Positions 17,658-63,990 of a stretch of DNA of 64,000 bases are shown piece after piece. The position numbers were made by a program, and so were the translations under genes. A model generated the notes under the pieces. That model searched no databases, was not told the DNA's origin, and worked only from the letters and a program-made list of their open reading frames with translations. The stretch is from NCBI RefSeq assembly GCF_001687105.1, contig NZ_CP014596.1, positions 427,501 to 491,500 on the forward strand. Direction: 5' to 3'. The first letter of the stretch is position 1. Each line of letters starts with the position of its first letter. This DNA is from Salipiger sp. CCB-MM3 (GTDB taxonomy: Bacteria > Pseudomonadota > Alphaproteobacteria > Rhodobacterales > Rhodobacteraceae).

Positions 17658-17667
17658 GGAGCACGTC

Positions 17668-19790: not shown

Positions 19791-19802
19791 GGCCCAGTCA
19801 GC

Positions 19803-20772: not shown

Positions 20773-20820
20773 CTGACACGTGAGATCCGAATCTCGGACA
20801 AACTCAGGGAGACATTCAAC

Positions 20821-21792: not shown

Positions 21793-21820
21793 GATCGGCA
21801 CAGCTTTCGCAAAGACAGTC

Positions 21821-21850: not shown

Positions 21851-21882
21851 TTACCGGAAGACGGCATCAGAGGGGCCTCAGC

Positions 21883-36660: not shown

Positions 36661-40542
<3,882 letters not shown>

Positions 40543-40543
40543 G

Positions 40544-40780
40544 TCAGGCCCCCGCGCGCTGCGCGGCGACCACGCCCCACCAGGCGCCGAAGGTCTGATG
40601 CTCCCAAATCTCCGAAAGATCGCCCTCTTCGCCCTCGTCCTGCCATGTCATCACCAGCGACATCAGGCGCATGGAATCGAGCCCCAGATCGAAGAGGTTG
40701 GCCTCATCGGTGATCTCTTCGGGGGCGATCTCCAGCGCTTCGGCGATATCGGCGCGCATCTTGTCCTTACTGAGGCTCAT
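40544..40780 (-). CDS. Stand-alone aryl carrier protein
   Basis: 78 residues. It has the carrier-protein core F-D-L-G-L-D-S-M-R-L-M with Ser36 as phosphopantetheine site and matches the C-terminal aryl carrier domain of EntB, but the isochorismatase domain is missing. It overlaps the aryl-AMP ligase gene (ATGA) and precedes the NRPS gene by one base. It receives the activated aryl acid and presents it to the NRPS condensation domain. Confidence 0.9.
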   Translation of the reverse strand: MSLSKDKMRADIAEALEIAPEEITDEANLFDLGLDSMRLMSLVMTWQDEGEEGDLSEIWEHQTFGAWWGVVAAQRAGA

Positions 40781-42405: not shown

Positions 42406-42573
42406 GCTCGATGCTCCGGCTTTGCAATGCAGGGTGGCGCGGCGCGCGCCGTTCCTTCGCGCTATCAATCACTACAAATTTGGTCAACTTACAATACCGT
42501 GTATTTTGATCAGGTATTGATCCGCGAGAAACCGCCTGACAAATCGAGGAAATTTTTGAGGTGCCACAGGCCG

Positions 42574-43488: not shown

Positions 43489-43646
43489 TGCTGACCTCCG
43501 TGCCCCCGGCATACTACGGCGGGCGACAGATTATTATCAACAATCCGTATAAAGTCCTTGGCGAAACCACGCGTATTCAGAGAGAGTGCGCGCTGCTAGC
43601 GTCCCCCTCCGTAAACCCAGCCACATGCTCAGCCACGGAGGGATGC

Positions 43647-49994: not shown

Positions 49995-51332
49995 ATGAAG
50001 ACCGACCAAGTGCTCCTGCGCGGACGCATCCTCAGTTTCACTGCCGAACCGCAGGGCCCCGAGGATCATGCCGCCTATCGCTATATCGAGGATGGGGCGA
50101 TCCTGATCGCGGGCGGGATCATTCGTGGCACCGGCAGCTACGATCAGCTGGCCCGGCAAGCGCCGAGCGTGCCGGTGGTGGACCACCGCCCGCATCTGCT
50201 TATGCCCGGTTTCATCGACACCCACATCCATTTCCCGCAGGTGCAGGTCATCGCCTCCTGGGGCGCGCAACTGCTGGATTGGCTTAACAGCTACACATTC
50301 CCCGAAGAGACCCGTTTCGCCGACCCCGCCCATGCCGAAGCCACGGCAGACTGGTTCATGGGCCAGCTTTGCGCCCATGGCACCACCAGCGCCGTTGCCT
50401 ATGCGTCGGTGCATGAGACCTCTGCCGAGGCGTTCTTCAGCGCCGCCGCGCGCCGCGACATGCGGATGATCACCGGCAAGGTGATGATGGACCGCAACGC
50501 GCCCGAGGCGCTGCGCGACACGCCGCAATCGGGCTATGACGCCACCAAGCGGCTGATCGCCCGCTGGCATGGCAAGGGCCGCGCCAGCTATGCCATCACG
50601 CCGCGCTTTGCCATCACCTCGAGCCCCGAGCAGATGGAGATGGCGGGCGCGCTCACCGCCGAGCACCCCGAGTGCTATGTGCAGACCCACCTGTCAGAAA
50701 ACCGCGACGAGATCGCCTATACGCTGAGCCTTTATCCCGAGGCGCCCGACTACCTTGGCGTCTATGAGCGCTATGGCCTGCTTGGCCCCAAGGCGCTGCT
50801 GGGCCATTCGATCCACCTTGAGCCGCGCGAGATTGACCTGCTGGCCGAGACCGGCGCGAAGCCGGTGTTCTGCCCGACCTCGAACCTCTTCCTTGGCAGC
50901 GGGCTTTTTGACGATGCGGGGCTGCGCGGCCGTGGGATCACCAATGCCATCGCGACGGATGTCGGCGCGGGCACCAGCTACTCGATGCTGCAAACGCTGA
51001 ACGAGGCCTACAAGGTGCTGCAGTTGCAGGGCCAGAAACTGCACCCGTTGCGTGCCTTCCATTGGATCACCCGCGGCAATGCCGTGGCGCTGGGGCTGGA
51101 AGACAAGATCGGCACGCTTGAGCCGGGGACCGAGGCGGATATCGTGGTGCTCGACAGCGCGGCGACCGAGCCGATGGCGCTGCGGATGCAGCGGGCCGAG
51201 ACGCTGAGCGAAGAGCTTTTTGTGCTGCAAATGCTGGGTGATGATCGTGCGGTGGCTGAGACCTATGTGGCTGGCACCCCGCAGAAGATCGGCGCGCGCG
51301 CGGCGAGGCAACCGGCGTTGCAGCCGGCCTGA
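49995..51332 (+). CDS. guaD: Guanine deaminase
   Basis: 445 residues. It is a metal-dependent amidohydrolase with P-G-F-I-D-T-H-I-H-F-P-Q (first metal histidines), then Q-T-H-L-S-E-N, G-H-S-I-H-L and A-T-D-V-G-A-G-T-S-Y-S-M, the guanine-deaminase pattern with the catalytic Asp. It converts guanine to xanthine, feeding xanthine dehydrogenase encoded upstream. AAAGGT precedes the ATG. Normal family length. Confidence 0.93.
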   Translation: MKTDQVLLRGRILSFTAEPQGPEDHAAYRYIEDGAILIAGGIIRGTGSYDQLARQAPSVPVVDHRPHLLMPGFIDTHIHFPQVQVIASWGAQLLDWLNSYTFPEETRFADPAHAEATADWFMGQLCAHGTTSAVAYASVHETSAEAFFSAAARRDMRMITGKVMMDRNAPEALRDTPQSGYDATKRLIARWHGKGRASYAITPRFAITSSPEQMEMAGALTAEHPECYVQTHLSENRDEIAYTLSLYPEAPDYLGVYERYGLLGPKALLGHSIHLEPREIDLLAETGAKPVFCPTSNLFLGSGLFDDAGLRGRGITNAIATDVGAGTSYSMLQTLNEAYKVLQLQGQKLHPLRAFHWITRGNAVALGLEDKIGTLEPGTEADIVVLDSAATEPMALRMQRAETLSEELFVLQMLGDDRAVAETYVAGTPQKIGARAARQPALQPA

Positions 51333-51509: not shown

Positions 51510-52385
51510 ATGACCCCCAACTACTACGCCCCCACCGGCGGCCACCCACCGCAGAGCCAACTGCTGACCGACCGCGCGGTGTTCACCGACGCCTACGCGG
51601 TGATCCCCAAGGGCACGATGCGCGACATCGTCACCAGCTTCCTGCCCTTCTGGGAAGAAACCCGCCTCTGGGTTCTGTCCCGCCCGCTCAGCGGCTTTGC
51701 CGAGACCTTCTCACAGTACATCATGGAAGTGCAGCCGGGCGGCGGCTCGGACCATCCCGAAACCGAAGCGGGCGCCGAGGGTGTGCTCTTCGTCGTGGAG
51801 GGCGAAGCTACGCTCACCGTCGAGGGCGAGAGCCATGTGCTGCGCGAAGGCGGCTATGCCTTCCTGCCGCCCGCCACGCTCTGGACCCTGCGCAACAAGG
51901 GTGATGACACCCTGCGCTTCCATTGGATCCGCAAAGCCTATGAGGCCGTGCCCGGCCTGCCCCACCCCGAGGTGATCATCGCCAACGAGCAGGACATCGC
52001 GCCCACCCCGATGCCCGGCACCGACGGCAAATGGGCGACCACCCGTTTCGTCGACCCCAGCGACCTGCGTCATGACATGCATGTCACCGTGGTGACCTTC
52101 GAGCCCGGCGCGGTCATCCCCTTTGCCGAGACCCATGTGATGGAGCACGGGCTTTACGTACTGGAGGGCAAGGCGGTCTACCGGCTCAATCAGGACTGGG
52201 TCGAGGTCGAGGCCGGGGATTACATGTGGCTGCGCGCTTTCTGCCCGCAGGCCTGCTACGCGGGCGGGCCGGGCCGCTTCCGCTACCTGCTCTACAAGGA
52301 CGTGAACCGGCATATGGCGCTGCGCCCCTCTGGCGCCGCCCAGCCCATGCCTGCGGCAAAGAAGATCAGCGCTCCGGCGGAGTGA
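51510..52385 (+). CDS. allE: (S)-ureidoglycine aminohydrolase
   Basis: 291 residues from the ATG at 51510; an ATG at 51486 is in frame but less well placed. Two cupin domains are visible. The first has S-D-H-P-E-T-E-A-G-A-E-G-V and a G-Y-A-F-L-P-P turn. The second has the Mn-site E-T-H-V-M-E-H-G and a Y-M-W-L-R-A-F-C-P-Q-A-C-Y segment, both characteristic of UGlyAH (E. coli YlbA/AllE). It releases ammonia from (S)-ureidoglycine to give (S)-ureidoglycolate, substrate of the lyase at 59677. Its 3' end overlaps the convergent bhcR gene by 20 bases. Confidence 0.9.
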   Translation: MTPNYYAPTGGHPPQSQLLTDRAVFTDAYAVIPKGTMRDIVTSFLPFWEETRLWVLSRPLSGFAETFSQYIMEVQPGGGSDHPETEAGAEGVLFVVEGEATLTVEGESHVLREGGYAFLPPATLWTLRNKGDDTLRFHWIRKAYEAVPGLPHPEVIIANEQDIAPTPMPGTDGKWATTRFVDPSDLRHDMHVTVVTFEPGAVIPFAETHVMEHGLYVLEGKAVYRLNQDWVEVEAGDYMWLRAFCPQACYAGGPGRFRYLLYKDVNRHMALRPSGAAQPMPAAKKISAPAE

Positions 52386-53211
52386 CCCCACCAATCGCCG
52401 ACGTCAATTCCCGAGCCGCGCGCATCACCGCGCGGCTCGTTTCATCCGTCATGTCCTCGCGCATGCGGATCGTCGGGCCGGAGACGGAAATCCCAGCCGC
52501 CGCCTCGCCCGAGGCATCGAAGACCGCCGCCGCGATGCAGCGCATCCCGAGGTTCTTTTCCTCTGCATCAATGGAATAGCCCCGCGCCCGGATCGCCGCG
52601 AGATCGGCGCGCAGCGCCTCGGGCTCGGCCAGCGTATGCGCGGTGAACCGCTCCATCTTACGCGCCAGCAGCTTCTCCAAACGCTCCCCAGCCATCTCGG
52701 CCAGCAGCGCCTTGCCGATGCCCGAGGCATGCAGCGGCGACAGCGTGCCCGGCGGAAAGAAGGCGCGGATGCTCTCATGCGTTTCGACCTGACTGACAAA
52801 CAGCACCGAGGCTTCGCGCACGATGCCCAAGTTGGCGGTTTCCCCGGTCTCCTCCATCAGTGCGCGCAGGATCGGTCGGGCCCGCTCCACAAGGCTGGTG
52901 CGCCGCAGGAAGCGCGCGCCGATGACGAAGGCCTGCGGGCCGATGTGCCAAAGCTGTTCGGCAGGATCGAACTCGACCAGCCGCCGCCCCTCGAGCGTGA
53001 CCAGAATACGGTAAACCGTGGCCGGAGACTGCCGCAGGTCGCCCGCCAGTTCCGAGAGGGTCAGGCCGGGATGGGCGCTCAGGTAGTCCAGCACCTCCAT
53101 CGCCCGGTCGAGCGATTTGATGGTGTTCTGCGCGCTGTTGTCCTCCCAGCCGCGCGGCCTGCCACGCGCGCGGCGGGGGCTGGTTTCGGCATCTTTCGGA
53201 GAATCCATCAA
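52366..53211 (-). CDS. bhcR: IclR family regulator, probable BhcR of the BHAC operon
   Basis: 281 residues. A basic N-terminus (R-R-A-R-G-R-P-R-G) precedes the IclR HTH (L-T-L-S-E-L-A-G-D-L-R-Q-S-P-A-T-V-Y-R-I-L) and the effector domain from about 105, with A-S-G-I-G-K-A-L-L-A. It is divergent from bhcABCD, exactly as in known BHAC clusters, where BhcR senses glyoxylate. Start at 53211 (Met-Met). The inverted repeat at 53296 in the shared spacer is the likely binding site. The name is assigned by family plus synteny. Confidence 0.88.
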   Translation of the reverse strand: MMDSPKDAETSPRRARGRPRGWEDNSAQNTIKSLDRAMEVLDYLSAHPGLTLSELAGDLRQSPATVYRILVTLEGRRLVEFDPAEQLWHIGPQAFVIGARFLRRTSLVERARPILRALMEETGETANLGIVREASVLFVSQVETHESIRAFFPPGTLSPLHASGIGKALLAEMAGERLEKLLARKMERFTAHTLAEPEALRADLAAIRARGYSIDAEEKNLGMRCIAAAVFDASGEAAAGISVSGPTIRMREDMTDETSRAVMRAARELTSAIGGVTPPER

Positions 53212-53295
53212 ATCTCTTTCATTCTACTTGAAAGCCGAATTCACGATATGAAAAAATCAACCCTCTGACAACGCTTGATCTTCTCGACAATTACA

Positions 53296-53318
53296 TTTTT
53301 GAAAAACGATTTCAAAAA
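53296..53318. promoter_or_regulatory. Probable BhcR operator: TTTTTGAAA-N5-TTTCAAAAA
   Basis: Perfect 9-bp inverted repeat with spacer AACGA, between divergent bhcR (start 53211) and bhcA (start 53377). Its core TGAAA-N5-TTTCA has the geometry of IclR-family sites such as KdgR boxes. Its distance to both starts allows control of both genes. Confidence 0.6.
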
Positions 53319-53376
53319 AATTTCCACACGCGGACAGCCCGGCTACGGTGGCTTTCAGCGACCAAAGGAGGTGGCC

Positions 53377-54576
53377 ATGAGCTTTCAGAACCCCGTTTTC
53401 ATTCCGGGCCCGACCAACATCCCCGAGAGCCTGCGCAAGGCCTGCGACATGCCGACGATCGACCATCGCTCGCCGCTGTTTGGGCAGATCCTGCACCCCG
53501 CGCGCGAGCGCGTGCGCCGTGTGCTGAAGAGCGCCAGCGCCGAGGTGTTCATCTTTCCCTCGACCGGCACTGGCGGCTGGGAGACGGCGCTGACCAATAC
53601 GCTCTCGCCGGGCGATACCGTGCTGGCGGCGCGCAATGGCATGTTCAGCCACCGCTGGATCGACATGTGCCAGCGCCACGGGCTGACCGTCGAAGTGGTG
53701 GAAACCGCGTGGGGCGAGGGCCTGCCCGCAGACCGCTACGCCGAGATCCTCGCCGCCGACAAAAGCCGCCGCATCAAGGCCGTGCTCGCCACTCACAACG
53801 AGACCGCCACCGGCGTGCGCTCGGACATCGCCGCAGTGCGCCGCGCGCTCGACGACGTGGATCACCCGGCGCTGCTGTTTGTCGATGGCGTCAGCTCGAT
53901 CGCCTCGATGGATTTCCGGTTTGACGACTGGGGCGTCGATGTCGCCGTCACCGGCTCGCAGAAGGGCTTCATGCTGCCTCCGGGCCTTGCCATCACCGGC
54001 TTCAGCGAGAAGGCCATGGCGGCGACGCAAACCGCAAAACTGCCGCGCACGTTCTTCGACGTGCATGACATGGCCAAGGGCTATGCCAATGATGCCTACC
54101 CCTACACGCCCGCCGTCGGCCTGCTGAACGGGCTCAACGAGGCCTGCCGGATGCTGCTGGACGAGGGGCTGGAGAATGTCTTTGCCCGACACCACCGCAT
54201 CGCCGAGGGCGTGCGCGCCGCCGTCGGCGCATGGGGGCTGGAGCTTTGCGCCGCCTCGCCCGATCTCTATTCGGACACGGTCAGCGCGATCCGCACGCCG
54301 GAAGGGTTCAACGCCACCGATATCGTCAGCCACGCCGCGCAGACCTATGGCGTCGCCTTCGGCACGGGGCTTGGCGAGGTTGCCGGGAAAGTGTTCCGCA
54401 TCGGGCATCTGGGCAGCCTGACCGACGTCATGGCGCTGTCGGGTCTTGCCACGGCCGAGATGTGCATGAAGGATCTGGGGCTGAAGATCACTCTGGGCTC
54501 GGGTGTCGCGGCGGCGCAGGAGGTTTACCGCACCAGCACCGCCACCGCCCGCACCGCCAGTCAGGAGGCCGCGTGA
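53377..54576 (+). CDS. bhcA: Aspartate-glyoxylate aminotransferase BhcA
   Basis: 399 residues from the ATG at 53377, preceded by AAAGGAGG; the frame is open from 53275. It is a class V-type aminotransferase (serine-glyoxylate family): N-P-V-F-I-P-G-P-T-N-I-P at the start, and the PLP lysine Lys196 in T-G-S-Q-K-G-F-M-L-P-P-G. In the BHAC it transfers the amino group of aspartate to glyoxylate, giving glycine and oxaloacetate. The function is fixed by the operon with bhcB, bhcC and bhcD; out of context it could be read as serine-glyoxylate aminotransferase. Confidence 0.92.
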   Translation: MSFQNPVFIPGPTNIPESLRKACDMPTIDHRSPLFGQILHPARERVRRVLKSASAEVFIFPSTGTGGWETALTNTLSPGDTVLAARNGMFSHRWIDMCQRHGLTVEVVETAWGEGLPADRYAEILAADKSRRIKAVLATHNETATGVRSDIAAVRRALDDVDHPALLFVDGVSSIASMDFRFDDWGVDVAVTGSQKGFMLPPGLAITGFSEKAMAATQTAKLPRTFFDVHDMAKGYANDAYPYTPAVGLLNGLNEACRMLLDEGLENVFARHHRIAEGVRAAVGAWGLELCAASPDLYSDTVSAIRTPEGFNATDIVSHAAQTYGVAFGTGLGEVAGKVFRIGHLGSLTDVMALSGLATAEMCMKDLGLKITLGSGVAAAQEVYRTSTATARTASQEAA

Positions 54577-55547
54577 TGAAAGATATCGCGCTGAACATCC
54601 CTACCTATGACGACATGCTGGCGGCGCATGATCGCATCGCACCGCACATCCATCGCACCCCGGTGCTGACCTCTTCGTTGCTGAACGAGCTCACCGGCGC
54701 GCAGCTGTTCTTCAAGTGTGAGAACTTCCAGAAGGCCGGGGCCTTCAAGGTGCGCGGCGCGTCCAACGCGGTCTTTGGCCTGACCGAGGCCGAGGCAGCC
54801 AAGGGCGTCTGCACCCACAGCTCGGGCAACCATGCGCTGTCGCTGAGCTACGCCGCCGGGCGGCGCGGCATCCCGTGCAATGTGGTCATGCCGCGCAGCG
54901 CGCCGCAGGCCAAGAAGGACGCAGTGCGCGGCTACGGCGGGATCATCACCGAATGCGAGCCGTCCACCTCGTCGCGCGAGGCGGTGTTCGCCGAGGTGCA
55001 GGCGGCCACGGGCGGCGATTTCATCCACCCCTACAACGATCCGCGCGTCATCGCGGGGCAAGGCACCTGCTCGCGCGAGTTCATGGAACAGACCGATGGT
55101 CTCGACATGGTGCTCGCCCCGATCGGCGGCGGCGGGATGATCTCGGGCACCTGCCTGACGCTCTCCACGCTGGCCCCCGAGGTGCAGGTCATCGCCGCCG
55201 AGCCCGAGCAGGCCGACGACGCCTACCGCAGCTTCAAGGCCGGGCACATCATCGCCGATGACGCCCCCGAGACCGTCGCCGACGGGCTGAAGGTGCCACT
55301 CAAGGATCTGACGTGGCATTTCGTCTCGAGCCATGTGAGCGACATTCTCACCGCGTCTGAAGACGAAATCATCGACGCGATGAAGCTGATCTGGAAGCGC
55401 ATGAAAATCGTGATGGAGCCCAGCAGCGCCGTGCCGCTTGCCACCCTCCTCAAGAACCGCGACCGTTTCGCTGGCAAGCGCGTCGGTCTCATCATCACCG
55501 GCGGCAATGTCGATCTCGACCGCCTGCCCTGGACCAAAGGAGCCTGA
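54576..55547 (+). CDS. bhcB: beta-Hydroxyaspartate dehydratase BhcB
   Basis: 323 residues, starting in TGATG overlap with bhcA. It has the serine/threonine dehydratase fold: PLP lysine Lys58 in F-Q-K-A-G-A-F-K-V-R-G-A, H-S-S-G-N-H-A-L-S substrate loop, and the Gly-rich phosphate loop P-I-G-G-G-G-M-I-S-G. It dehydrates (2R,3S)-beta-hydroxyaspartate to iminosuccinate, which BhcD then reduces. Next to bhcA and bhcC this is far more likely than a threonine dehydratase. Confidence 0.92.
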   Translation: MKDIALNIPTYDDMLAAHDRIAPHIHRTPVLTSSLLNELTGAQLFFKCENFQKAGAFKVRGASNAVFGLTEAEAAKGVCTHSSGNHALSLSYAAGRRGIPCNVVMPRSAPQAKKDAVRGYGGIITECEPSTSSREAVFAEVQAATGGDFIHPYNDPRVIAGQGTCSREFMEQTDGLDMVLAPIGGGGMISGTCLTLSTLAPEVQVIAAEPEQADDAYRSFKAGHIIADDAPETVADGLKVPLKDLTWHFVSSHVSDILTASEDEIIDAMKLIWKRMKIVMEPSSAVPLATLLKNRDRFAGKRVGLIITGGNVDLDRLPWTKGA

Positions 55548-55550
55548 GCC

Positions 55551-56714
55551 ATGAACGCACCCGTGACTTTCGACCAACTCGAGGTGGGCTATGACGTGCC
55601 GGCGCTGCCCGGCATGGACGAGGCAGACATCCAGACGCCCTGCCTCGTGCTCGATCTGGACGCGCTCGAGCGCAACATCCGCAAGATGGGCGACTACGCC
55701 CGCGCCCACAACATGCGCCACCGCGTGCACGGCAAGATGCACAAATCCGTGGACGTGGCGAAGCTGCAGATGCGGCTTGGCGGCGCGGTCGGCGTGTGCT
55801 GTCAGAAGGTGTCGGAGGCCGAGGTCTTCGTGCGCGGCGGCATCAAGGACGTGCTGGTCTCAAACCAAGTGCGCGATCCGCGCAAGATCGACCGGCTGGC
55901 GCGGCTGCCGAAACTGGGCGCAAAGATCATTGTCTGCATCGATGACCTCGCCAATGTCGCCGAGCTGTCGGAGGCCGCGCAGCGCCACGGCACCACGCTC
56001 GAGTGCTTTGTCGAGATCGACTGCGGCGCAGGCCGCTGCGGCGTGACCACCGCCACGGCGGTGGTAGAGATCGCGCAGGCCATCGACGCCGCCGAGGGGC
56101 TCAAATTCACCGGCATTCAGGCGTACCAAGGCGCGATGCAGCACCTCGACAGCTATGAGGCGCGGCGCGAGAAACTGGCCATCGCCATCGCACAGGTCGA
56201 AGAGGCCGTGGCGGCGCTGGAGGCAGCGGGGCTGAAGCCCGAGCTGGTCTCGGGCGGCGGCACCGGCAGCTACTATTTCGAGAGCAACTCGGGCGTCTAC
56301 AACGAGCTGCAGTGCGGGTCTTACGCCTTCATGGATGCGGACTATGGCCGCATCCGCGACAAGGACGGCAACCGCATCGACAACGGCGAGTGGGAAAACG
56401 CCTTTTTCATCCTCACGCAGGTGATGAGCCACGCCAAGCCCGAGATCGCGGTCTGTGACGCGGGCCTCAAGGCGCAGTCGGTGGACAGCGGCCTGCCGGT
56501 GATCTTTGGCCGGACCGACGTGGACTACACCAAATGCTCGGACGAGCATGGCGTGATCGCCGACCCGAGCGGCGTGCTGAAGGTGGGCGACAAGCTGAGG
56601 CTCGTGCCCGGCCACTGCGATCCCACCGCCAATGTGCACGATTGGTACGTCGGCGTGCGCGGCGGCAAGGTCGAGACGCTCTGGCCGGTCTCGGCCCGCG
56701 GCAAGGCCTACTGA
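55551..56714 (+). CDS. bhcC: beta-Hydroxyaspartate aldolase BhcC
   Basis: 387 residues. It is a D-threonine-aldolase-like alanine racemase-fold enzyme: H-R-V-H-G-K-M-H-K near residues 57-65, with Lys62 as probable PLP lysine, and conserved E-I-D-C-G-A-G-R-C-G-V. The N-terminus (V-G-Y-D-V-P-A-L-P-G-M-D-E) is as in characterised BhcC proteins. It condenses glycine and glyoxylate to beta-hydroxyaspartate. GGAGCCTGAGCC precedes the ATG, three bases after bhcB. Confidence 0.93.
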   Translation: MNAPVTFDQLEVGYDVPALPGMDEADIQTPCLVLDLDALERNIRKMGDYARAHNMRHRVHGKMHKSVDVAKLQMRLGGAVGVCCQKVSEAEVFVRGGIKDVLVSNQVRDPRKIDRLARLPKLGAKIIVCIDDLANVAELSEAAQRHGTTLECFVEIDCGAGRCGVTTATAVVEIAQAIDAAEGLKFTGIQAYQGAMQHLDSYEARREKLAIAIAQVEEAVAALEAAGLKPELVSGGGTGSYYFESNSGVYNELQCGSYAFMDADYGRIRDKDGNRIDNGEWENAFFILTQVMSHAKPEIAVCDAGLKAQSVDSGLPVIFGRTDVDYTKCSDEHGVIADPSGVLKVGDKLRLVPGHCDPTANVHDWYVGVRGGKVETLWPVSARGKAY

Positions 56715-56724
56715 TCCTCCAGCA

Positions 56725-56756
56725 TCACTCTTTGCCCCGTTCACTCTTTGCCCCGT
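56725..56756 (+). repeat. Perfect 16-bp tandem duplication in the bhcC-bhcD spacer
   Basis: TCACTCTTTGCCCCGT occurs twice head to tail, at 56725-56740 and 56741-56756, immediately after the bhcC stop. Likely a slippage product; no coding role. Confidence 0.85.
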
Positions 56757-56782
56757 GCCCGGACCGACCTCCGGGTACGCCT

Positions 56783-56821
56783 CGCCCGCGCGCTCTCTTG
56801 TCCCGGCGCGCGGGCGCTTTT
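56783..56821 (+). terminator. Terminator-like hairpin inside the bhc operon
   Basis: Perfect 11-bp stem CGCCCGCGCGC / GCGCGCGGGCG with a 12-nt loop, followed by CTTTTCT, 69 bases after the bhcC stop and 19 before bhcD. Its form is that of an intrinsic terminator or attenuator, which would lower bhcD expression relative to bhcABC unless read through. Confidence 0.65.
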
Positions 56822-56839
56822 CTTTGAAAGGAGAGCTTC

Positions 56840-57805
56840 ATGCTCATCGTTCCCGAACGCGAGATCGCCAGCCTGATGACCCGCGACGCCGCCTTTGCTG
56901 CGGTCGAGAAAGTGTTTGCCGCAATGGCCGCCGGTGACGCCTACAACTTCCCCGTCGTGCGCGAGGCCATCGGCCATGAAGACGCGCTCTACGGCTTCAA
57001 GGGCGGCTTTGATCGCTCGGGCCTGACGCTGGGGCTGAAGGCCGGAGGCTACTGGCCCAACAACCTCGCGACGCGTGGCATCATCAACCACCAGTCCACG
57101 GTGTTTCTCTTTGATCCGGACACCGGCAAGGCCAAGGCGATGGTGGGCGGCAATCTTTTGACCGCGCTGCGCACCGCCGCGGCCTCTTCGGTGTCGATCC
57201 GGCACCTTGCGCGCGAAGACGCACGGGTGATCGGCATGGTCGGCGCGGGCCATCAGGCGACCTTCCAACTGCGCGCCGCGCTCGAGCAGCGCGAGTTCGA
57301 CAAGGTCATCGGCTGGAACCTGCACCCCGAGATGCTGCCCAACCTCGAAAAGGTGGCCGCCGAGGCGGGCGTGCCCTTCGAGGCGGTGGACCTGCCGGGC
57401 ATGCGTGAGGCCGATGTGATCATCTCGATCACCTCGTCGTTCGACGCGATCCTCATGGCAGAGCACGTCTCGCCCGGCTGCCACATCGCCTGCATGGGCA
57501 CCGACACCAAGGGCAAGCAGGAGGTCTCTCCGGCGCTGCTGGCCAAGGCCACGGTGTTCACCGACGAGGTGGCGCAGTCGGTGTCGATTGGCGAAGCGCA
57601 GCACGCGGTGGCGCAGGGGCTGATCGACGAGAGTGCCATCACCCAGCTCGGCGCGGTGATCAATGGCGCGCATCCGGGGCGCGCTTCGGCCGAAGAGATC
57701 ACCCTCTTCGACGGCACCGGCGTGGGCCTGCAGGACCTCGCGGTCGCCGCGGCAGTGGTCGATCTGGCGGTCGAGAAGGGCATCGCGATTGAGGTCGATT
57801 TCTGA
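56840..57805 (+). CDS. bhcD: Iminosuccinate reductase BhcD
   Basis: 321 residues. It is an ornithine cyclodeaminase/mu-crystallin family protein: the NAD(P) loop G-M-V-G-A-G-H-Q-A near residue 134, L-R-T-A-A-A-S-S-V-S, and D-G-T-G-V-G-L-Q-D-L-A near the C-terminus. In the BHAC this fold reduces iminosuccinate to aspartate, closing the cycle with BhcA. AAAGGAGAGC precedes the ATG. A terminator follows at 57830. Confidence 0.92.
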   Translation: MLIVPEREIASLMTRDAAFAAVEKVFAAMAAGDAYNFPVVREAIGHEDALYGFKGGFDRSGLTLGLKAGGYWPNNLATRGIINHQSTVFLFDPDTGKAKAMVGGNLLTALRTAAASSVSIRHLAREDARVIGMVGAGHQATFQLRAALEQREFDKVIGWNLHPEMLPNLEKVAAEAGVPFEAVDLPGMREADVIISITSSFDAILMAEHVSPGCHIACMGTDTKGKQEVSPALLAKATVFTDEVAQSVSIGEAQHAVAQGLIDESAITQLGAVINGAHPGRASAEEITLFDGTGVGLQDLAVAAAVVDLAVEKGIAIEVDF

Positions 57806-57829
57806 CGACAGCGTTCAGATGGAGACGCC

Positions 57830-57858
57830 AAGGGCGGGGGCTTTGCCTCCGCCCTTTT
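57830..57858 (+). terminator. Intrinsic terminator of the bhc operon
   Basis: Stem AAGGGCGG / CCGCCCTT extended inward to 11 pairs (one G-U), with a 5-nt loop, then TT. It lies 24 bases after the bhcD stop. It is the first feature of the 355-base gene-free stretch 57806-58160, which otherwise holds the repeat at 57887 and the minus-strand terminator at 58110. Confidence 0.7.
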
Positions 57859-57886
57859 CCGTTGACCACGAGGCGCCACCAAAGCT

Positions 57887-58058
57887 GGGCGAGCGCATGC
57901 CCGTGGGGTGGCGCTCTGACTTGGGAAGTCGCCGCTTTATCCCCATCACATCCGGATGACCTCAATCCCCGCAAGAGGATGAAGAGCGCCAGCCCGCCGG
58001 GACGGGCAAGCGCTTGCCCGGCGGCCTTCGGCCTTGGTTCCGGGCCACTTGCGCGCAG
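57887..58058. repeat. Dispersed ~170-bp palindromic intergenic repeat, copy 2
   Basis: Second copy of the element at 19619-19790. Left arm 57887-57915 and right arm 57985-58019 are imperfect inverted repeats of each other (GGGCGAGCGCATGCCCGT.. against ..ACGGGCAAGCGCTTGCCC), with GCTTTATCCC between them and GGCGGCCTTCGGCCTTGGTTCC after the right arm. It is again placed between convergent genes. A folded transcript would form a long stem of roughly 25 pairs. Confidence 0.7.
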
Positions 58059-58109
58059 ACCATTCGCCGGAACTGCCGAACCAGACACCCACGCAACATC
58101 CAATACAAA

Positions 58110-58135
58110 CGGCGCGCCCCCGAAGGGACGCGCCG
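58110..58135 (-). terminator. Terminator of the minus-strand purine permease/allantoin genes
   Basis: On the minus strand, CGGCGCG / CGCGCCG with an inner CCC/GGG stem and TTCG loop is followed by TTTGTATT. It lies 26 bases downstream of the permease stop at 58161. Confidence 0.65.
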
Positions 58136-58160
58136 CAGCTTCCACCTAAGGTCGATCGGG

Positions 58161-59624
58161 TCAGACCCTCTCGCCGCGCGGCTCCTCTCCGCGATGGCCG
58201 GCGAGGCCACCCGAGACCTCTTCGGTGGATTCCTCGGCCAGTTCCTCCGGCAGCACGAGGTTGAGCACGATGGCGATCAGCGCGGCGGGCAGGATCCCCG
58301 AAGCCCCCAGAATGCGCAGCGTGTCGGGCAGGTGCTGCAGCGCATTGGGCGCGCCCGGCGCGACGTTCAGCACCTCCAGCTGCAGCCCCAGACCGATCGA
58401 AAGCGCCACGGCGAAGATCACCATGTTGCGCCGCGTCCAATCGACGTCGGACAGCATCGAGATGCCCGAGGCCACGACCATGCCGAACATCACGATCACG
58501 CCGCCGCCCAGCACCTCGATCGGCACGGTGCGGATCACCCCGCCGACCTTCGGCACCAGCCCGCAGACGATCAGGAAGATCGCGCCGATGGTCACCACAT
58601 GGCGGCTCATCACGCCGGTCATCGCGATCAGCCCGACGTTCTGGCTGAACGAGGTGTTGGGAAAGCCGCCGAAGATGCCCGCGATGGCCGAGCCGATGCC
58701 GTCGGCATAGGTGGCGCCAGAGATCTCGCGGTCGCTCGCCTCGCGGCCCGCGCCACCCTTGGTGATACCCGAGACGTCACCGACGGTTTCAACCGCCGAG
58801 ACGAAAGCCATCAGGCAAAAGCCGATCACCGAGGCGATGGAGAACTCGAGACCATAGCGGAACGGTTCCGGCAGCGCGAAGGCGGCGGCGTTCTGCCACG
58901 AGCCGGTGATGGCCTCCAGGGTCAGCATGCCGGTGAAGAGCGCATAGACATAGCCCACTAGGATGCCGATCAGCACCGCCGAGATGCTCAGCATGCCACG
59001 GGCAAAGAACTTCAGCCCCAGCGTCACCGCCAGCACCACCAGCGCCGCCGACCAAGAGGCCCAAGAGCCGTAGCTTTCGGCGCCGCTCGCCTTGGCGGGC
59101 ACACCGCCCGCGGCATATTCGATGCCCACCTTGACCAGCGCGAGGCCGATCATCGTCACCACAAGGCCGGTCACCAGCGGCGGCAGGGCAAAGCGGATGC
59201 GCCCGATCACCGTGCCAAGCAGCGCGTGGAACACGCCGCCCACGAGGACCCCGCCGAACATGGCAGCCAGCCCGTCCACACCCTTGCCCGCAACCAGCGG
59301 GATCATGATCGGGATGAAGGCAAAGGATGTGCCCTGCACGATGGGCAGCGCCGCGCCCACGGGGCCGAGGGTGATCGTCTGCAACAGCGTCGCCACCCCG
59401 GCGAACAGCATCGACATCTGGATGAGATAGAGCAGTTCGGGAAAGTCCGGGCTGTTCGAGCCAAAGCCGAAGCCCGCGGCGCCGGCGACGATGATCGCGG
59501 GCGTCACGTTCGAGACGAACATCGCCAGCACATGCTGAATCCCGAGCGGGATCGCCTTGTGCAGCACGGGGGTGAAATCCGGATCGCGCAATTGCTCCGG
59601 TGTTCCGAGACTGTGGTCGGTCAT
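58161..59624 (-). CDS. NCS2 family urate/xanthine permease (UraA/XanQ/UacT branch)
   Basis: 487 residues with about fourteen helices. The nucleobase-transporter signature is present: S-Q-N-V-G-L-I-A-M-T-G-V. G-T-S-F-A-F-I-P in helix 3 and E-T-V-G-D-V-S-G in helix 8 also match this branch. The C-terminal tail is Glu-rich and hydrophilic. Together with the downstream-pathway genes it probably imports urate or xanthine. It stands downstream of allA on the same strand, 52 bases away. Confidence 0.9.
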   Translation of the reverse strand: MTDHSLGTPEQLRDPDFTPVLHKAIPLGIQHVLAMFVSNVTPAIIVAGAAGFGFGSNSPDFPELLYLIQMSMLFAGVATLLQTITLGPVGAALPIVQGTSFAFIPIMIPLVAGKGVDGLAAMFGGVLVGGVFHALLGTVIGRIRFALPPLVTGLVVTMIGLALVKVGIEYAAGGVPAKASGAESYGSWASWSAALVVLAVTLGLKFFARGMLSISAVLIGILVGYVYALFTGMLTLEAITGSWQNAAAFALPEPFRYGLEFSIASVIGFCLMAFVSAVETVGDVSGITKGGAGREASDREISGATYADGIGSAIAGIFGGFPNTSFSQNVGLIAMTGVMSRHVVTIGAIFLIVCGLVPKVGGVIRTVPIEVLGGGVIVMFGMVVASGISMLSDVDWTRRNMVIFAVALSIGLGLQLEVLNVAPGAPNALQHLPDTLRILGASGILPAALIAIVLNLVLPEELAEESTEEVSGGLAGHRGEEPRGERV

Positions 59625-59676
59625 GTCTTAGTCAGATCCCTGTTGGGGCGCGGGGCCGGTCTTGCTGCCGACATCC

Positions 59677-60165
59677 TCACGCGGTGGCGTGAATGAGGTA
59701 GGGTTCGTCGAACCAGTGCTCCTCGAGGTTGGGCCCCTCGCCGATCCGGTCGATCACGGCGAAAAGTCCCGGCGCGTGCAGCGGGGTCAGCACCCCGTGC
59801 CACGTGCCGCGGTGGAAATTGATCCCCTGACCGGGGCGGGTCAGGAAGGCGCGGGGCGCGCCGGGGCGGCCGCCTGCGTCCGGGGCGACCACCACGAGGA
59901 AAGGATCAAAGCTCATCGGCACGAAGGCCTGACTGCCCTGAGGATGCCGCTCGACCATCTCGAGCCGCAGCGGCAGTTGGCGCGGCTCGGCCTTGAACAG
60001 GCTGATCCCGGCGCGGCCCCCGGTGATGTCGAGCGTGGCGCGGTCGTGGAACCGCCCGCAAAGCCCCTGATTGATGATCTTGTCGGGCGTGCCGTCCGCC
60101 TCCAGCACCTCGCCAAACGGGGCGAAGGCTGCGGCAGTCAGCGGCGCGGCGTCGATCCGGCTCAT
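59677..60165 (-). CDS. allA: Ureidoglycolate lyase
   Basis: 162 residues, the normal AllA length. Conserved V-E-R-H-P-Q-G-S-Q-A-F-V-P and F-H-R-G-T-W-H-G-V-L-T-P-L motifs carry the cupin-fold metal/catalytic residues. It splits (S)-ureidoglycolate into urea and glyoxylate. The start overlaps the puuE stop as ATGA. The released glyoxylate is the entry compound of the BHAC encoded at 53377-57805. Confidence 0.92.
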   Translation of the reverse strand: MSRIDAAPLTAAAFAPFGEVLEADGTPDKIINQGLCGRFHDRATLDITGGRAGISLFKAEPRQLPLRLEMVERHPQGSQAFVPMSFDPFLVVVAPDAGGRPGAPRAFLTRPGQGINFHRGTWHGVLTPLHAPGLFAVIDRIGEGPNLEEHWFDEPYLIHATA

Positions 60166-61598
60166 GCGCCGAGCTTGTCGATCAGCCGCAGTTCGGCGAT
60201 CCGTTCGACCTGACAGCAGGCCTCGGCGAACTCGGTGGCGCGGTCGTTCTCGATGCGGCGGCGGAAGGCCTGCATGATCGACGCCTTGTCGTTGTCGCGC
60301 ACCGCGATGATGAAGGGAAAGCCGAATTTCGCGGTGTAAGCCTCATTGAGCTCGGTGAAGGCAGCGCGCTCGTCGTCGGTGAGCGCGTCGAGCCCGGCGC
60401 CTGCCTGCTCCGAGGTCGACTCCGCCGTCAGGCGCTTGGCCTGCGCCAGTTTTCCCGCAAGGTCGGGGTGCGCGGTCAGCACCGCCAGCCGCTTCTCGTC
60501 AGGGGCGTCGCGGAACACCCGCGCCAGCACCGAATGCACGCCCAGCGCGCTGTCATGCGTCGGGCCAAGCTGCAGCGCATGGGCGCCCTCGGCGATCCAC
60601 GGGCTGTGCTCGAAGACACCGCCGAAAGCCTCGGTGAAGCTGGCCCGGTCCATCTCGGAGGGACGCGGGCCCGCCTTCGCAGGATGCTGCGCCGCCCAAT
60701 GATCGGCGATCTGCTCGCGCGTGGCGAACCAGACCCCGTCGTGCGAGGCCATATACGCCAGCACCCGCTTCAGCGCCGCGACACGGCCCGGGCGACCGAC
60801 CAGACGGCAGTGCAGCCCGATCGACAGCATCTTCGGCGCGCCCTCCTGCCCTTCCTCATAGAGCGTGTCGAAACTGTCGCGCAGGTAGCTTTCGAACTGG
60901 TCGCCAGAGTTGAACCCCTGCGGCGAGGCAAACCGCATGTCATTGGCATCCAGCGTATAGGGCACGATCAGCTGATCCTTGCCCGCGACCCGGCTCCAAT
61001 AGGGCAGATCATCGGCGTAGCTGTCGGCGATATAAGCGAAATCGCCCTCTTCGGCGGCGAGCCGGACCGTGTTCATAGAGCAGCGCCCGGTGTACCAGCC
61101 GCGCGGCGGCGCGCCGGTCACCAGCGTGTGCAGGCGGATCGCCTCACGGATCTGCGCGCGCTCTTCTTCCTCGGGCATATCCTTGTGCTCGACCCATTTG
61201 AGCCCATGCGAAGCGATCTCCCAACCGGCGCGCTTCATCGCGGCAACCTGCTCGGGCGCGCGGGCAAGCGCGGTGGCGACGCCATAGACGGTGACGGGGA
61301 TATCCTTCAGCAGCCGATGCAGCCGCCAGAACCCGGCGCGGGCGCCGTATTCATAGATCGACTCCATGTTCCAATGGCGCTGGCCGGGCCATTGCGCGGC
61401 ACCGACGATCTCTGAAAGGAACGCCTCGGACGCCGCATCACCGTGCAGGACGTTGTTCTCGCCGCCCTCCTCGTAGTTGACCACGATCTGCACCGCGATC
61501 TTGGCGCCGTTCGGCCAGCGGGCATCAGGCGGGGTCTCTCCATAGCCGGTCAGGTCGCGGGGATAGCGGGTCGCGGGCAGCGGGCTCAACAGCGTCAT
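60162..61598 (-). CDS. puuE: Bifunctional allantoinase (PuuE) / OHCU decarboxylase (UraD) fusion
   Basis: 478 residues from the ATG at 61598 (AAGGAG ten bases upstream); the frame is open to 61673. Residues about 1-305 form a polysaccharide-deacetylase-type allantoinase (N-Y-E-E-G-G-E-N; E-I-A-S-H-G-L-K-W; G-W-Y-T-G-R-C-S). Residues about 315-478 form an OHCU decarboxylase (A-F-G-G-V-F-E-H-S-P-W-I-A-E with catalytic His; A-H-P-D-L-A-G-K; K-F-G-F-P-F-I-I-A-V-R near the end). The two domains act on successive steps: OHCU to (S)-allantoin, then allantoin to allantoate. Such fusions are known in proteobacteria. Confidence 0.93.
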   Translation of the reverse strand: MTLLSPLPATRYPRDLTGYGETPPDARWPNGAKIAVQIVVNYEEGGENNVLHGDAASEAFLSEIVGAAQWPGQRHWNMESIYEYGARAGFWRLHRLLKDIPVTVYGVATALARAPEQVAAMKRAGWEIASHGLKWVEHKDMPEEEERAQIREAIRLHTLVTGAPPRGWYTGRCSMNTVRLAAEEGDFAYIADSYADDLPYWSRVAGKDQLIVPYTLDANDMRFASPQGFNSGDQFESYLRDSFDTLYEEGQEGAPKMLSIGLHCRLVGRPGRVAALKRVLAYMASHDGVWFATREQIADHWAAQHPAKAGPRPSEMDRASFTEAFGGVFEHSPWIAEGAHALQLGPTHDSALGVHSVLARVFRDAPDEKRLAVLTAHPDLAGKLAQAKRLTAESTSEQAGAGLDALTDDERAAFTELNEAYTAKFGFPFIIAVRDNDKASIMQAFRRRIENDRATEFAEACCQVERIAELRLIDKLGA

Positions 61599-61722: not shown

Positions 61723-62658
61723 CTACCGCCCGCTTTCCGCCGCGCGCTGCTCGGCCTGCCGGATCGCTGCGCCGATGCGGTCGGTCACATAGTCCATGAA
61801 AAGCCGCGTCTTTGGATCCTGCCCGCGGCGATGCGTGAACAGACAGGCCATCTGGATCGGCTCCGGCGGGGTGGCCTCGGCCACCGGCACGAGTCGCCCG
61901 CTGCGCAGATACTCGGCCACCTCGAAGACCGGCTTCAGCGCAATCCCCTCGCCCGCCAGAGCCCAATCGGTCAGCACGTCGCCGTCGTCGGACTCATAGC
62001 GCCCCGAGACGGCAAAACGCTTCGTGCCCTCGGGCGTGCGCAGCGGCCATTGAAACTCCGTCGCGCCGGGGAAGCGCAGGTTGAGGCATTCGTGCTTTTC
62101 CGCGATCAGCGCCTCGCCCGAGGCCGGGTTGCCACGCCGCGCAATATAGGTCGGCGCGGCGCAGAGCACGCGCGCGACGTCGGCGATCTTGCGCATACGC
62201 AGGGTGCTGTCTTCAGGCTGGCCAAGGAAGAACGCCAGATCGAGTCCTTCGGTCGTAAGATCGACCTTGCGGTCCGACAGGCGCAGGCGGATCTGCACCT
62301 CGGGATATTCGCGCAGGAACCCCGGCACCTGCGCAGCGATCAGCCGCCGCCCCACCCCCAGCGGCGCCGCGACAAAGAGCGAGCCCTTGGGATTTTCGGT
62401 GAGTTGCGCCACCTGCGCCTCGGCGCTCTCGAGCGCCTCCAGAACCTCGCGCGCGCCGGTATAGAAGGCGCGGCCCTGCTCTGTGGCGGTGAGATTGCGG
62501 GTGGTGCGCTGGAACAGCCGCACGTTCAAATGGTCCTCGAGCTGCGAGATTCGCGCCGAGGTGACCGCCGGCGAGATGCGCAGGTCGCGACCCGCGGCGG
62601 ACATGCTGCCCAACTCATAGACACGCACGAAGGTCCGGATATTGTCGAGGTAGGACAT
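61723..62658 (-). CDS. LysR family transcriptional regulator (divergent from puuD)
   Basis: 311 residues from the ATG at 62658; the frame is open to 63120, which would run antisense through puuD. HTH is V-R-V-Y-E-L-G-S-M-S-A-A-G-R-D-L-R-I-S-P-A-V. The effector domain is complete, with a longer C-terminal tail than the paralogue at 42574-43488. It is divergent from puuD with 99 bases between, and its 3' end lies 124 bases before the puuE start. Probable regulator of urate breakdown. Confidence 0.88.
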   Translation of the reverse strand: MSYLDNIRTFVRVYELGSMSAAGRDLRISPAVTSARISQLEDHLNVRLFQRTTRNLTATEQGRAFYTGAREVLEALESAEAQVAQLTENPKGSLFVAAPLGVGRRLIAAQVPGFLREYPEVQIRLRLSDRKVDLTTEGLDLAFFLGQPEDSTLRMRKIADVARVLCAAPTYIARRGNPASGEALIAEKHECLNLRFPGATEFQWPLRTPEGTKRFAVSGRYESDDGDVLTDWALAGEGIALKPVFEVAEYLRSGRLVPVAEATPPEPIQMACLFTHRRGQDPKTRLFMDYVTDRIGAAIRQAEQRAAESGR

Positions 62659-62757: not shown

Positions 62758-63990
62758 ATGTATGATCTCGCCATCATCTGGGACTGGCTGGGCTTTGCCG
62801 TGCGCTGGCTGCACGTGATCACCGCAATCGCGTGGATCGGCTCGTCGTTCTATTTCATCGCGCTCGACCTCGGTCTGCGCAAGGTGCCGCATCTGCCCGT
62901 CGGCGCCCATGGCGAGGAATGGCAGGTCCACGGCGGCGGTTTCTACCACATCCAGAAATACCTCGTGGCCCCCGAGCAGATGCCCGACCACCTGACGTGG
63001 TTCAAATGGGAAAGCTATGCCACATGGCTTTCGGGCGCGGGCCTTCTGATGATCGTCTACTGGGCAGGCGGCGAGCTTTTCCTGATCGACCCCACCAAAG
63101 CGGACATCTCGCTGTTCCAAGGCATCGTGATCTCGGCGCTGTCGCTGACCATCGGCTGGCTGATCTACGACCGGCTGTGCAAATCGAAGCTCGGCGAGAC
63201 GCCGACGCTGCTGATGGTGCTGCTCTTCGTGATGCTGGTGGTGATGTCATGGGGCTACAACCATGTGTTCACCGGCCGCGCCGCGCTGCTGCACCTTGGG
63301 GCCTTCACCGCCACGATCATGACCGCAAATGTGTTCTTCATCATCATGCCGAACCAGCGCATCGTGGTGGATGACCTCAAGAACGGCCGCACCCCCGATC
63401 CCAAATACGGCAAGATCGCCAAGCTGCGCTCGACCCATAACAACTATCTGACGCTGCCCGTCGTCTTCCTGATGCTGTCGAACCACTACCCGCTGGCCTT
63501 CGCCACCGACAATGCGTGGATCATCGCCAGCCTTGTCTTCCTGATGGGCGTGACGATCCGCCATTTCTTCAACTCGATGCACGCCCGCAAGGGGGCGCCC
63601 TACTGGACATGGGTCGCCACCGCGCTGCTCTTCATCGCCATCGCGTGGCTGTCCACGGCCCCGATGATGGACAGCTACGAGGAGGCCGCAGCGCGGCCCC
63701 TCACCCCCTATGAGGAGAAATTCGCCGGGGCAGATGGCTTTGAGGATGCCTATTACGCGGTCGTCGGCAATTGCTCGATGTGCCACGCGCGCGAGCCTTC
63801 GTGGGACGGTCTGAACCATCCGCCCAAAGGCGTCGTGCTGGAGACGGAGTCTGATGTGGCCCGCCACGCCAAGCTGGTGTTCCTGCAGGCCGGTGCCAGC
63901 CACGCGATGCCGCCGCCCAACGCGATCCAGATGGATCCCGAGGCGCGCCGCGAGATCGTCAACTGGTATCACGCCGCGACCAAAGGCTGA
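62758..63990 (+). CDS. puuD: Membrane-bound urate hydroxylase with C-terminal cytochrome c domain
   Basis: 410 residues. About eight membrane helices begin with W-L-H-V-I-T-A-I-A-W-I-G-S-S-F-Y-F; histidines suitable for haem or metal are spread through the core (for example F-Y-H-I-Q and T-I-R-H-F). A C-terminal cytochrome c domain carries C-S-M-C-H (Cys339, Cys342, His343), with M-P-P-P-N as likely Met ligand. PuuD oxidises urate to 5-hydroxyisourate and feeds electrons to the respiratory chain instead of oxygen directly. AGAGGGAGA precedes the ATG. The gene is complete, ending ten bases before the window edge. Confidence 0.93.
   Translation: MYDLAIIWDWLGFAVRWLHVITAIAWIGSSFYFIALDLGLRKVPHLPVGAHGEEWQVHGGGFYHIQKYLVAPEQMPDHLTWFKWESYATWLSGAGLLMIVYWAGGELFLIDPTKADISLFQGIVISALSLTIGWLIYDRLCKSKLGETPTLLMVLLFVMLVVMSWGYNHVFTGRAALLHLGAFTATIMTANVFFIIMPNQRIVVDDLKNGRTPDPKYGKIAKLRSTHNNYLTLPVVFLMLSNHYPLAFATDNAWIIASLVFLMGVTIRHFFNSMHARKGAPYWTWVATALLFIAIAWLSTAPMMDSYEEAAARPLTPYEEKFAGADGFEDAYYAVVGNCSMCHAREPSWDGLNHPPKGVVLETESDVARHAKLVFLQAGASHAMPPPNAIQMDPEARREIVNWYHAATKG

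Follow-up and report, generated by a model that had tools for sequence, protein, structure and literature searches.

Purine-degradation genes beside a beta-hydroxyaspartate cycle operon in Salipiger sp. CCB-MM3: a probable entry of purine carbon into the cycle

A bhc operon within a purine-degradation region

Why should a complete set of genes for the beta-hydroxyaspartate cycle (BHAC), a pathway so far presented as the way in which marine bacteria deal with petagrams of algal glycolate, lie in the middle of a purine-degradation region? This question is raised by a stretch of 64,000 nucleotides from Salipiger sp. CCB-MM3 (hereafter the window; positions 427501-491500 of contig 2 of a 5.52 Mb genome). 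A first-pass annotation of the window had placed bhcR-bhcABCD at 52366-57805, between an aminohydrolase gene and the genes for a permease, a ureidoglycolate lyase and an allantoinase. These coordinates hold, with the families above their cut-offs, and the purine setting is wider than that annotation said, taking in xdhABC upstream and a LysR-family gene and PuuD downstream (Table 1). We consider it likely that the BHAC serves these bacteria as the final, carbon-assimilating part of their purine and ureide catabolism.

With respect to the cycle itself, all five bhc genes, including those for the four cycle enzymes BhcA-D, score above the cut-offs of their NCBIfam equivalog models. The alignment of BhcC with 6qkb, a solved D-3-hydroxyaspartate aldolase, covers the full length of the protein, and residues 1-320 of the 321 of BhcD align with the solved iminosuccinate reductase 6rqa. 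BhcA might instead be a PucG-like ureidoglycine--glyoxylate aminotransferase, in which case the set would act directly on ureidoglycine. BhcA and PucG are indeed related aminotransferases, and the PucG chain 3isl was matched at 129.8 bits; however, the match to the BhcA equivalog (Table 1) lies far above that to any other aminotransferase model, the best solved chain is the serine--glyoxylate aminotransferase 6pk1 (386.3 bits), and BhcB, BhcC and BhcD complete the cycle, which makes this explanation hardly credible.

A purine and ureide route to glyoxylate is likewise predicted from the genome, which encodes xanthine dehydrogenase, urate oxidase, OHCU decarboxylase, allantoinase, ureidoglycine aminohydrolase (UGHY) and ureidoglycolate lyase, with an HIU hydrolase outside the window (C4:202438; above the TIGR02962 cut-off). 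The aminohydrolase also exceeds the cut-off of the model for bifunctional allantoicase/(S)-ureidoglycine aminohydrolase (NF040771, 511.7 bits, cut-off 350), and its closest solved chain is 1sq4, described as Glyoxylate-induced Protein. Among the genes scanned, at 42.6-64.0 kb of the window, there is none for a glycolate oxidase.

Under the proposed reading, guanine and xanthine would be imported, then deaminated and oxidised to urate by GuaD and XdhABC; urate would be converted to allantoin by PuuD, the HIU hydrolase encoded elsewhere and UraD, allantoin to allantoate by PuuE, and allantoate to ureidoglycolate by the aminohydrolase, possibly performing both steps. Ureidoglycolate lyase, in keeping with the chemistry of its family, would then yield glyoxylate and urea. 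This glyoxylate would switch on bhcABCD through BhcR, and BhcA-D would turn two molecules of glyoxylate into one of oxaloacetate, with CO2 retained. Such a stoichiometry of the BHAC has been reported for Paracoccus denitrificans in the available text of two papers (PMC11323563, PMC12214560). If the reading is correct, purines and allantoin would supply both carbon and nitrogen, and would feed into central metabolism without loss of CO2.

Net assimilation of glyoxylate is known to proceed by either of two routes, the glycerate pathway or the BHAC (PMC11323563, available text). The glycerate pathway requires glyoxylate carboligase (Gcl), which was above the TIGR01504 cut-off in none of the 292 genomes of the order (taken to be Rhodobacterales on the strength of the named relatives), the window's genome included, and in one of 14 control genomes, so that of the two routes the BHAC alone is seen here. 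E. coli carries a gene for this carboligase. The idea that Gcl takes over as the tail in relatives without bhc was rejected: 78 genomes have weaker matches, at 337-355 bits against a cut-off of 711.2, and these probably represent acetolactate-synthase relatives.

Linkage of bhc and purine genes in other genomes

The first-pass annotation took the gene order as a hint that purines are a second input into the BHAC, and held that this would fail if the two gene sets did not occur together in relatives. The comparison favours the link and lends support to the suggested purine input. BhcC was matched in 179 of the 292 genomes at E 1e-60 or better, of which a few (E about 1e-129 to 1e-146) may have paralogues only. 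From the best 150 BhcC match rows (identity at least 76%) minus the window's own, we took 149 regions from 147 genomes, each covering up to 9.4 kb on either side of bhcC; since 18 of them stop early at the end of a contig, the linkage counts are lower bounds. A purine gene lies within reach of bhcC in 72 of these regions, representing 35 of 62 genera, and one or more ureide genes occur in 70 (UGHY in 50, AllA in 52, PuuE in 52, PuuD in 43). A rescan that added the Paracoccus permease, oxoguanine deaminase and uraH left the totals at 72 regions and 35 genera, with uraH in 52 regions. Neither GlcD nor GlcE was found in any of the 149.

Distances between gene pairs tell the same story among the matches listed (the best 150 rows each for PuuE and GlcD): BhcC and PuuE lie at most 10 kb apart in 39 of the 99 genomes listed for both, as against 0/79 for GlcD-PuuE, 0/23 for an IlvB-like anchor and PuuE, and 0/85 for BhcC-GlcD. 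Furthermore, among 80 named loci, the best by sequence among the matches listed and inclusive of metagenome-assembled genomes and of two pairs from one genome each, a ureide gene is present in 58, any purine gene in 64, and glcDE in one (Ensifer), a match from which it follows that the glcDE search can detect these genes. The linked named loci comprise 51 of 65 from Rhodobacterales, six of ten from Hyphomicrobiales (Stappia, Roseibium, Roseitalea, Nitratireductor, Rhizobium tropici and a Phyllobacteriaceae bin) and one from an unplaced alphaproteobacterium, with none from Oceanospirillales (0/2), Rhodospirillales (0/1) or Spirulinales (0/1). The closest named BhcC loci among the matches listed are from Salipiger and Alloyangia (93-95%), and a plasmid of Alloyangia pacifica carries 16 genes in an order identical to that of the window, at 85-97% identity, its aminohydrolase being annotated as a bifunctional allantoicase/(S)-ureidoglycine aminohydrolase. 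As a separate observation, an 11 kb contig filed under the cyanobacterium Spirulina subsalsa FACHB-351 carries bhcBC at 83-84% identity, suggestive of contamination or recent transfer.

By a coarse rule of our own, the 72 linked regions fall into ten arrangement classes, two of them consisting of a single region. The commonest is that of the window (47 of 72, six of these decided by the aminohydrolase gene). In the Paracoccus-like class, PuuE and UGHY stand in reverse before bhcR and PuuD follows bhcD; others have PuuE-UGHY-AllA forward or the whole ureide block before bhcR, or have, after bhcD, AllA-UGHY-PuuE in reverse, xdhAB, GuaD and xdh in reverse, or permease-GuaD-PuuD forward. In a FastTree phylogeny of BhcB+BhcC (143 rows, that is, 142 plus the window, after two rows without BhcB and five shorter than 12 kb had been dropped), the label linked or unlinked switches 32 times, with at least 24 of the switches forced by starred branches; gains and losses of linkage are indistinguishable in this tree. 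Shuffled labels give 48 switches on average, and the lower observed number indicates that linkage is partly inherited too. Thus, the physical link between bhc and purine genes is widespread, takes several arrangements and extends to a strain of the model species, although it is not obligatory. We infer that purine-derived glyoxylate is the flux that keeps it.

Two relatives from the same genus lend themselves to comparison. Genome G039 (locus L206) has the same gene order as the window, and the BhcB+BhcC sequences of the two fall into different supported tree groups, which suggests replacement or transfer in place. BhcC is absent from genome G066, and there the corresponding 9 kb hold the aminohydrolase gene, a gene of another kind, the permease, LysR and PuuD genes; in this single case bhc, the ureidoglycolate lyase and PuuE are missing from the site, and PuuE is found elsewhere in the genome.

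The model species shows an operon-like arrangement. On a 1.73 Mb replicon of P. denitrificans HAMBI_2443, a strain other than that of the published work, BhcC is without difference from 6qkb, and the stretch 12996-21980 (L266) carries bhcABCD, a permease gene, genes for 8-oxoguanine deaminase and uraH, and then puuD. The xanthine-type permease (510.8 bits, cut-off 414.15), the deaminase (698.1, cut-off 532) and uraH (124.3, cut-off 87.45) are codirectional with bhcD, from which the permease gene is separated by 41 bp; it overlaps the deaminase gene by 1 bp, and a gap of 16 bp precedes uraH. Of the G+C-rich terminator-like hairpins in the stretch, the longest is found 56 bp past uraH; the hairpin scan, which returned eight candidates where 5.5 would be expected by chance, found no terminator-like site between bhcD and the start of the permease gene and two weak ones within that gene. 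An operon bhcABCD-permease-deaminase-uraH is predicted on these grounds. The gap between the bhcD and permease matches is 42-78 bp in 15 further Paracoccus-type loci (seven of the 149 regions and eight of the 80 named loci), and the corresponding stretch of the closely related P. ferrooxidans continues to LysR and xdhABC-guaD.

BhcC also occurs in 118 plasmid records, 16 of which, selected by us, were viewed for their settings. Purine genes stand beside bhc in seven of the 16, namely those of Alloyangia, Methylobacterium, Pseudosulfitobacter, P. versutus, P. denitrificans, P. ferrooxidans and Leisingera. An 8-oxoguanine deaminase gene and an NCS2 permease gene adjoin bhc on the Methylobacterium plasmid, and that of Leisingera has, in one stretch, modABC, the aminohydrolase gene, bhc, permease, lyase, PuuE, uraH, PuuD, xdhA and the start of xdhB. 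Three records (Sinorhizobium twice, Rhizobium) have glcDEF beside bhc, and one (Agrobacterium) has an alpha-hydroxy acid oxidase gene. The three glcDEF-bhc clusters resemble the window in that bhc adjoins a glyoxylate-producing pathway, but their source is glycolate oxidase, whereas that of the window is ureidoglycolate lyase; bhc is thus carried along with genes for more than one source of glyoxylate. On the plasmids of Sinorhizobium americanum and Rhizobium sp. N324, urea amidolyase-like and biotin carboxylase-like genes precede glcDEF and bhcRABCD. The remaining five records have neither purine genes nor glcDEF: those of Ruegeria pomeroyi DSS-3, Aminobacter and Rhizorhabdus, and two small conjugative plasmids, Phaeobacter gallaeciensis pP75_g and Yoonia vestfoldensis pSMR4r-2. 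The latter two carry bhcB and bhcC alone, in the company of RidA proteins, an FAD oxidoreductase, a TRAP transporter and mercury-resistance genes, where bhcBC perhaps serve a route for another hydroxy-amino acid.

Regulation, counter-evidence and alternatives

If the two gene sets are functionally joined, at what level might they be coupled? The P. denitrificans bhcRABCD locus and that of the window agree in their five genes, in gene order and in the kind of divergent bhcR-bhcA control region. The P. denitrificans BhcR is a glyoxylate-responsive activator, and a potential palindromic site upstream of bhcA has been reported for it, according to the available text (PMC11323563, PMC12214560 for the former; PMC11323563 for the latter). 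By an IclR alignment read by eye against Table 1 of PMC11323563, the window's BhcR agrees with it at eight of nine ligand positions, with Ser for Thr at 143. Site 2, near bhcA, holds TGAAA-N5-TTTCA, a palindrome recognised by eye, and site 1, near bhcR, holds an imperfect TGAAA-N5-ATTCA and an additional TGAAAAA. In 204 bhcR-bhcA intergenic regions, site 2 is conserved in 201 (at least 14 of 23 positions) and site 1 in 148 (at least 12 of 18). The window thus has a divergent bhcR whose product has a predicted glyoxylate-type ligand site, and a palindromic putative operator upstream of bhcA.

The same element was sought at the purine genes with a matrix derived from 201 bhcR-bhcA intergenic regions. 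At 18 bits or more, this matrix is matched in 22.7% of 97 puuE upstream regions versus 0-1% of those of UGHY, PuuD, LysR and XdhA and 0.2% of shuffled sequences; the window's own puuE upstream region has a low score. A BhcR operator common to bhc and puuE is not supported, a similar motif being found in bhc-lacking genomes too. The motif in question, TTTC-N8..12-TTGA.A, is present in 38 of the 97 puuE upstream regions (all but L234, the bhc-free ureide operon of the window's genome, from bhc loci; L120 and L209 are examples) and in 22 of 47 of xdhA, as compared to UGHY 1/99, PuuD 1/78, AllA 6/93, bhcA 8/217 and bhcR 9/204, with no occurrence upstream of LysR, XanP, GuaD, BhcD or XdhB. It precedes puuE in four of ten bhc-lacking genomes and in four of ten with unlinked bhc, these 20 being our choice from 60 searched. 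It appears to be an element of a purine regulon rather than a BhcR site, perhaps the operator of an unnamed purine regulator.

Since no bhc site is seen at the purine genes of the window and the puuE look-alike occurs in bhc-lacking genomes too, the coupling is best placed at the metabolite: most likely, BhcR would sense purine-derived glyoxylate, with, in Paracoccus, a common transcript in addition. A single regulator that binds both promoters is not the coupling that we propose.

Several observations weigh against a purine supply of the cycle. To begin with, purine genes without bhc are common: PuuE was matched in 286 of the 292 genomes, the same-genus genomes G066 and G159 have PuuE and no BhcC, and the window's own genome has, on contig 1 (1125263-1129481), a second lower ureide operon, PuuE-UGHY-AllA-permease, which is without bhc and whose proteins are 56-72% identical to those of the window (a single case). 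Neither BhcC nor a carboligase above cut-off was found in 113 of the 292 genomes, so that purine glyoxylate must have other fates in these relatives, a finding that slightly lowered our confidence. Moreover, 77 of the 149 bhcC regions have no purine gene within reach, the three plasmid records with glcDEF point to glycolate, and no purine genes lie within 12 kb of the R. pomeroyi DSS-3 bhc cluster. In the window's genome, the best match to the AllC model (251.6 bits) is below its cut-off of 597.75, so that either the aminohydrolase or an unproven homologue would have to carry out the allantoate step; the genome also encodes malate synthase G. Finally, no bhc site was found with the matrix upstream of the window's purine genes, and an operator common to bhc and puuE is not supported, as described above. 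The near-universal presence of PuuE also rendered a correlation of the presence and absence of bhc and purine degradation unusable.

Some of these observations are what would be expected if the region were a nitrogen-scavenging island into which a glycolate-assimilating operon had come by chance, with purines used for nitrogen alone, bhc for glycolate, and the small glyoxylate load taken up by malate synthase G and acetyl-CoA. Malate synthase is a glyoxylate consumer too, but one that requires acetyl-CoA. The malate synthase G gene, the bhc-free ureide operon, the 77 unlinked clusters and the 113 genomes without BhcC and carboligase all fit such a scenario, as do GlcD-like genes in 292 of 292 genomes, none of them above the curated cut-off. 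However, ten coarse arrangements in 35 of 62 genera are hard to explain by hitch-hiking, glycolate oxidase adjoins bhc in none of the 149 regions, and the Paracoccus layout is operon-like, so we regard a chance association as unlikely. Nor do the unlinked clusters point to another partner: among the 40 widest open reading frame (ORF) clusters beside the 77, no other neighbour recurs widely, those above seven genera map onto the bhc genes, many of them as spurious antisense ORFs, and the widest away from bhc are ABC-transporter-ATPase-like (seven genera) and GAPDH-like (four genera), as named by eye.

Alternatively, bhc beside the ureide genes might serve mainly to remove toxic glyoxylate, with the carbon gain as a side effect. 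The lyase product is, by family chemistry, a reactive aldehyde, and no glyoxylate carboligase above cut-off was found in the 292 genomes; on the other hand, a four-enzyme cycle with a dedicated activator exceeds the needs of detoxification, and malate synthase is present. We consider this explanation highly improbable as the main one, although the detoxification and carbon-assimilation readings overlap and sequence cannot separate them.

Use of purine carbon through the BHAC, the reading that we prefer, has parallels in known systems. In Pseudomonas aeruginosa, PA1498-PA1502 (gcl, glxR) encode an allantoin-inducible glyoxylate pathway (PMC12694930, available text), which likewise joins glyoxylate assimilation to the breakdown of allantoin and is required for growth on allantoin carbon; it uses glyoxylate carboligase, whereas here, with Gcl above cut-off in none of the 292 genomes, the BHAC replaces it where bhc is present. 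In the AllR regulon of E. coli, as outlined in the available text of PMC11323563, a glyoxylate-sensing IclR-family regulator also governs glyoxylate use together with allantoin genes; AllR, however, is a repressor at gcl and allS-allA, while BhcR is the bhc activator, and a common site with the ureide genes was not found. The available main texts of PMC11323563 and PMC12214560 treat the P. denitrificans BHAC with glycolate, glyoxylate and ethylene glycol, and mention neither a permease, urate or xanthine nor purine neighbours of bhc; the introduction of PMC11323563 lists, in one sentence, purines and allantoin among the sources of glyoxylate. Deletion strains (delta-bhcABCD, delta-bhcR) and a Pbhc-mCherry reporter are described for P. 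denitrificans in the available text of PMC11323563. Among the papers listed by the literature searches, bhc beside purine genes is reported in no title or opening lines; supplements and the original cycle paper lay outside this search, and an earlier mention is possible. The cycle was reportedly first described in a 2019 Nature paper.

More tentatively, and with less conviction than the reading for the window itself, it could be proposed that the Rhodobacterales BHAC is primarily a purine/ureide carbon module, kept or rebuilt beside purine genes in the place of the glycerate pathway, with glycolate as a second input from elsewhere in the genome. With the permease, deaminase and uraH included in the P. 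denitrificans bhc operon, glyoxylate would, through BhcR, raise purine uptake in a positive feedback, and this loop would sit in the very organism from which the glycolate view arose. If about half of the order's carriers keep the cycle among purine genes, bhc genes or transcripts found in the sea could not be read as a sign of glycolate use alone. Furthermore, the proposal offers a reason why bhc-bearing Rhodobacterales degrade purines without glyoxylate carboligase; it does not account for the 113 genomes with neither bhcC nor the carboligase.

Genes of the window

The features of the region are collected in Table 1. The 3' end of bhcR overlaps the aminohydrolase gene by 20 bp. The permease upstream of guaD matched neither an NCBIfam model at 1e-3 nor a Pfam family at 1e-5. 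The NCS2 permease downstream of bhcD scored 412.3 bits against TIGR03173, slightly below the cut-off of 414.15.

Table 1. Features of the purine and bhc region in window coordinates; start codons were chosen by us, and that of xdhA was taken from the translation.
Feature	Position	Strand	Evidence
LysR-family regulator, divergent from xdhA	42574..43512	-	Pfam LysR_substrate and HTH_1
xdhA, xanthine dehydrogenase small subunit	43647..45098	+	TIGR02963, 672.6 bits (cut-off 467)
xdhB, xanthine dehydrogenase molybdopterin subunit	45111..47435	+	TIGR02965, 1317.7 bits (cut-off 849.5)
xdhC, xanthine dehydrogenase accessory protein	47432..48259	+	TIGR02964, 267.7 bits (cut-off 161.6)
Permease, probably for purines	48327..49910	+	Annotation of the 97% identical Alloyangia pacifica counterpart: xanthine/uracil/vitamin C permease
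guaD, guanine deaminase	49995..51332	+	TIGR02967, 568.8 bits (cut-off 375.4)
(S)-ureidoglycine aminohydrolase	51510..52385 (from ATG 51510)	+	NF008376, 537.5 bits (cut-off 338)
bhcR, IclR-family regulator	52366..53208	-	NF045644, 401.7 bits (cut-off 350)
bhcR-bhcA control region	53229..53322	.	Site 1, 53229-53256; site 2, 53300-53322
bhcA, L-aspartate--glyoxylate aminotransferase	53377..54576	+	NF045640, 752.6 bits (cut-off 650)
bhcB, beta-hydroxyaspartate dehydratase	54576..55547	+	NF045641, 602.3 bits (cut-off 550)
bhcC, 3-hydroxy-D-aspartate aldolase	55551..56714	+	NF045642, 765.4 bits (cut-off 690)
bhcD, iminosuccinate reductase	56840..57805	+	NF045643, 588.4 bits (cut-off 500)
NCS2 nucleobase:cation symporter, xanthine-permease type	58161..59624	-	TIGR00801, 318 bits (cut-off 291.8)
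allA-type ureidoglycolate lyase	59677..60165	-	NF002952, 294.9 bits (cut-off 260); PF04115
puuE-uraD fusion, allantoinase and OHCU decarboxylase	60162..61598	-	TIGR03212, 518.7 bits (cut-off 424.6); TIGR03164, 205.9 bits (cut-off 96.25)
LysR-family regulator between puuE and puuD	61723..62658	-	Pfam; position kept in many relatives
puuD, urate oxidase	62758..63990	+	PF06181 (Urate_ox_N), 448 bits; without NCBIfam match

Directly upstream of this region, at 36661-42468 on the minus strand, lie genes for an EntF-like nonribosomal peptide synthetase and a 2,3-dihydroxybenzoate-AMP ligase. Neither reaches its curated cut-off; the two probably constitute a catechol siderophore locus.

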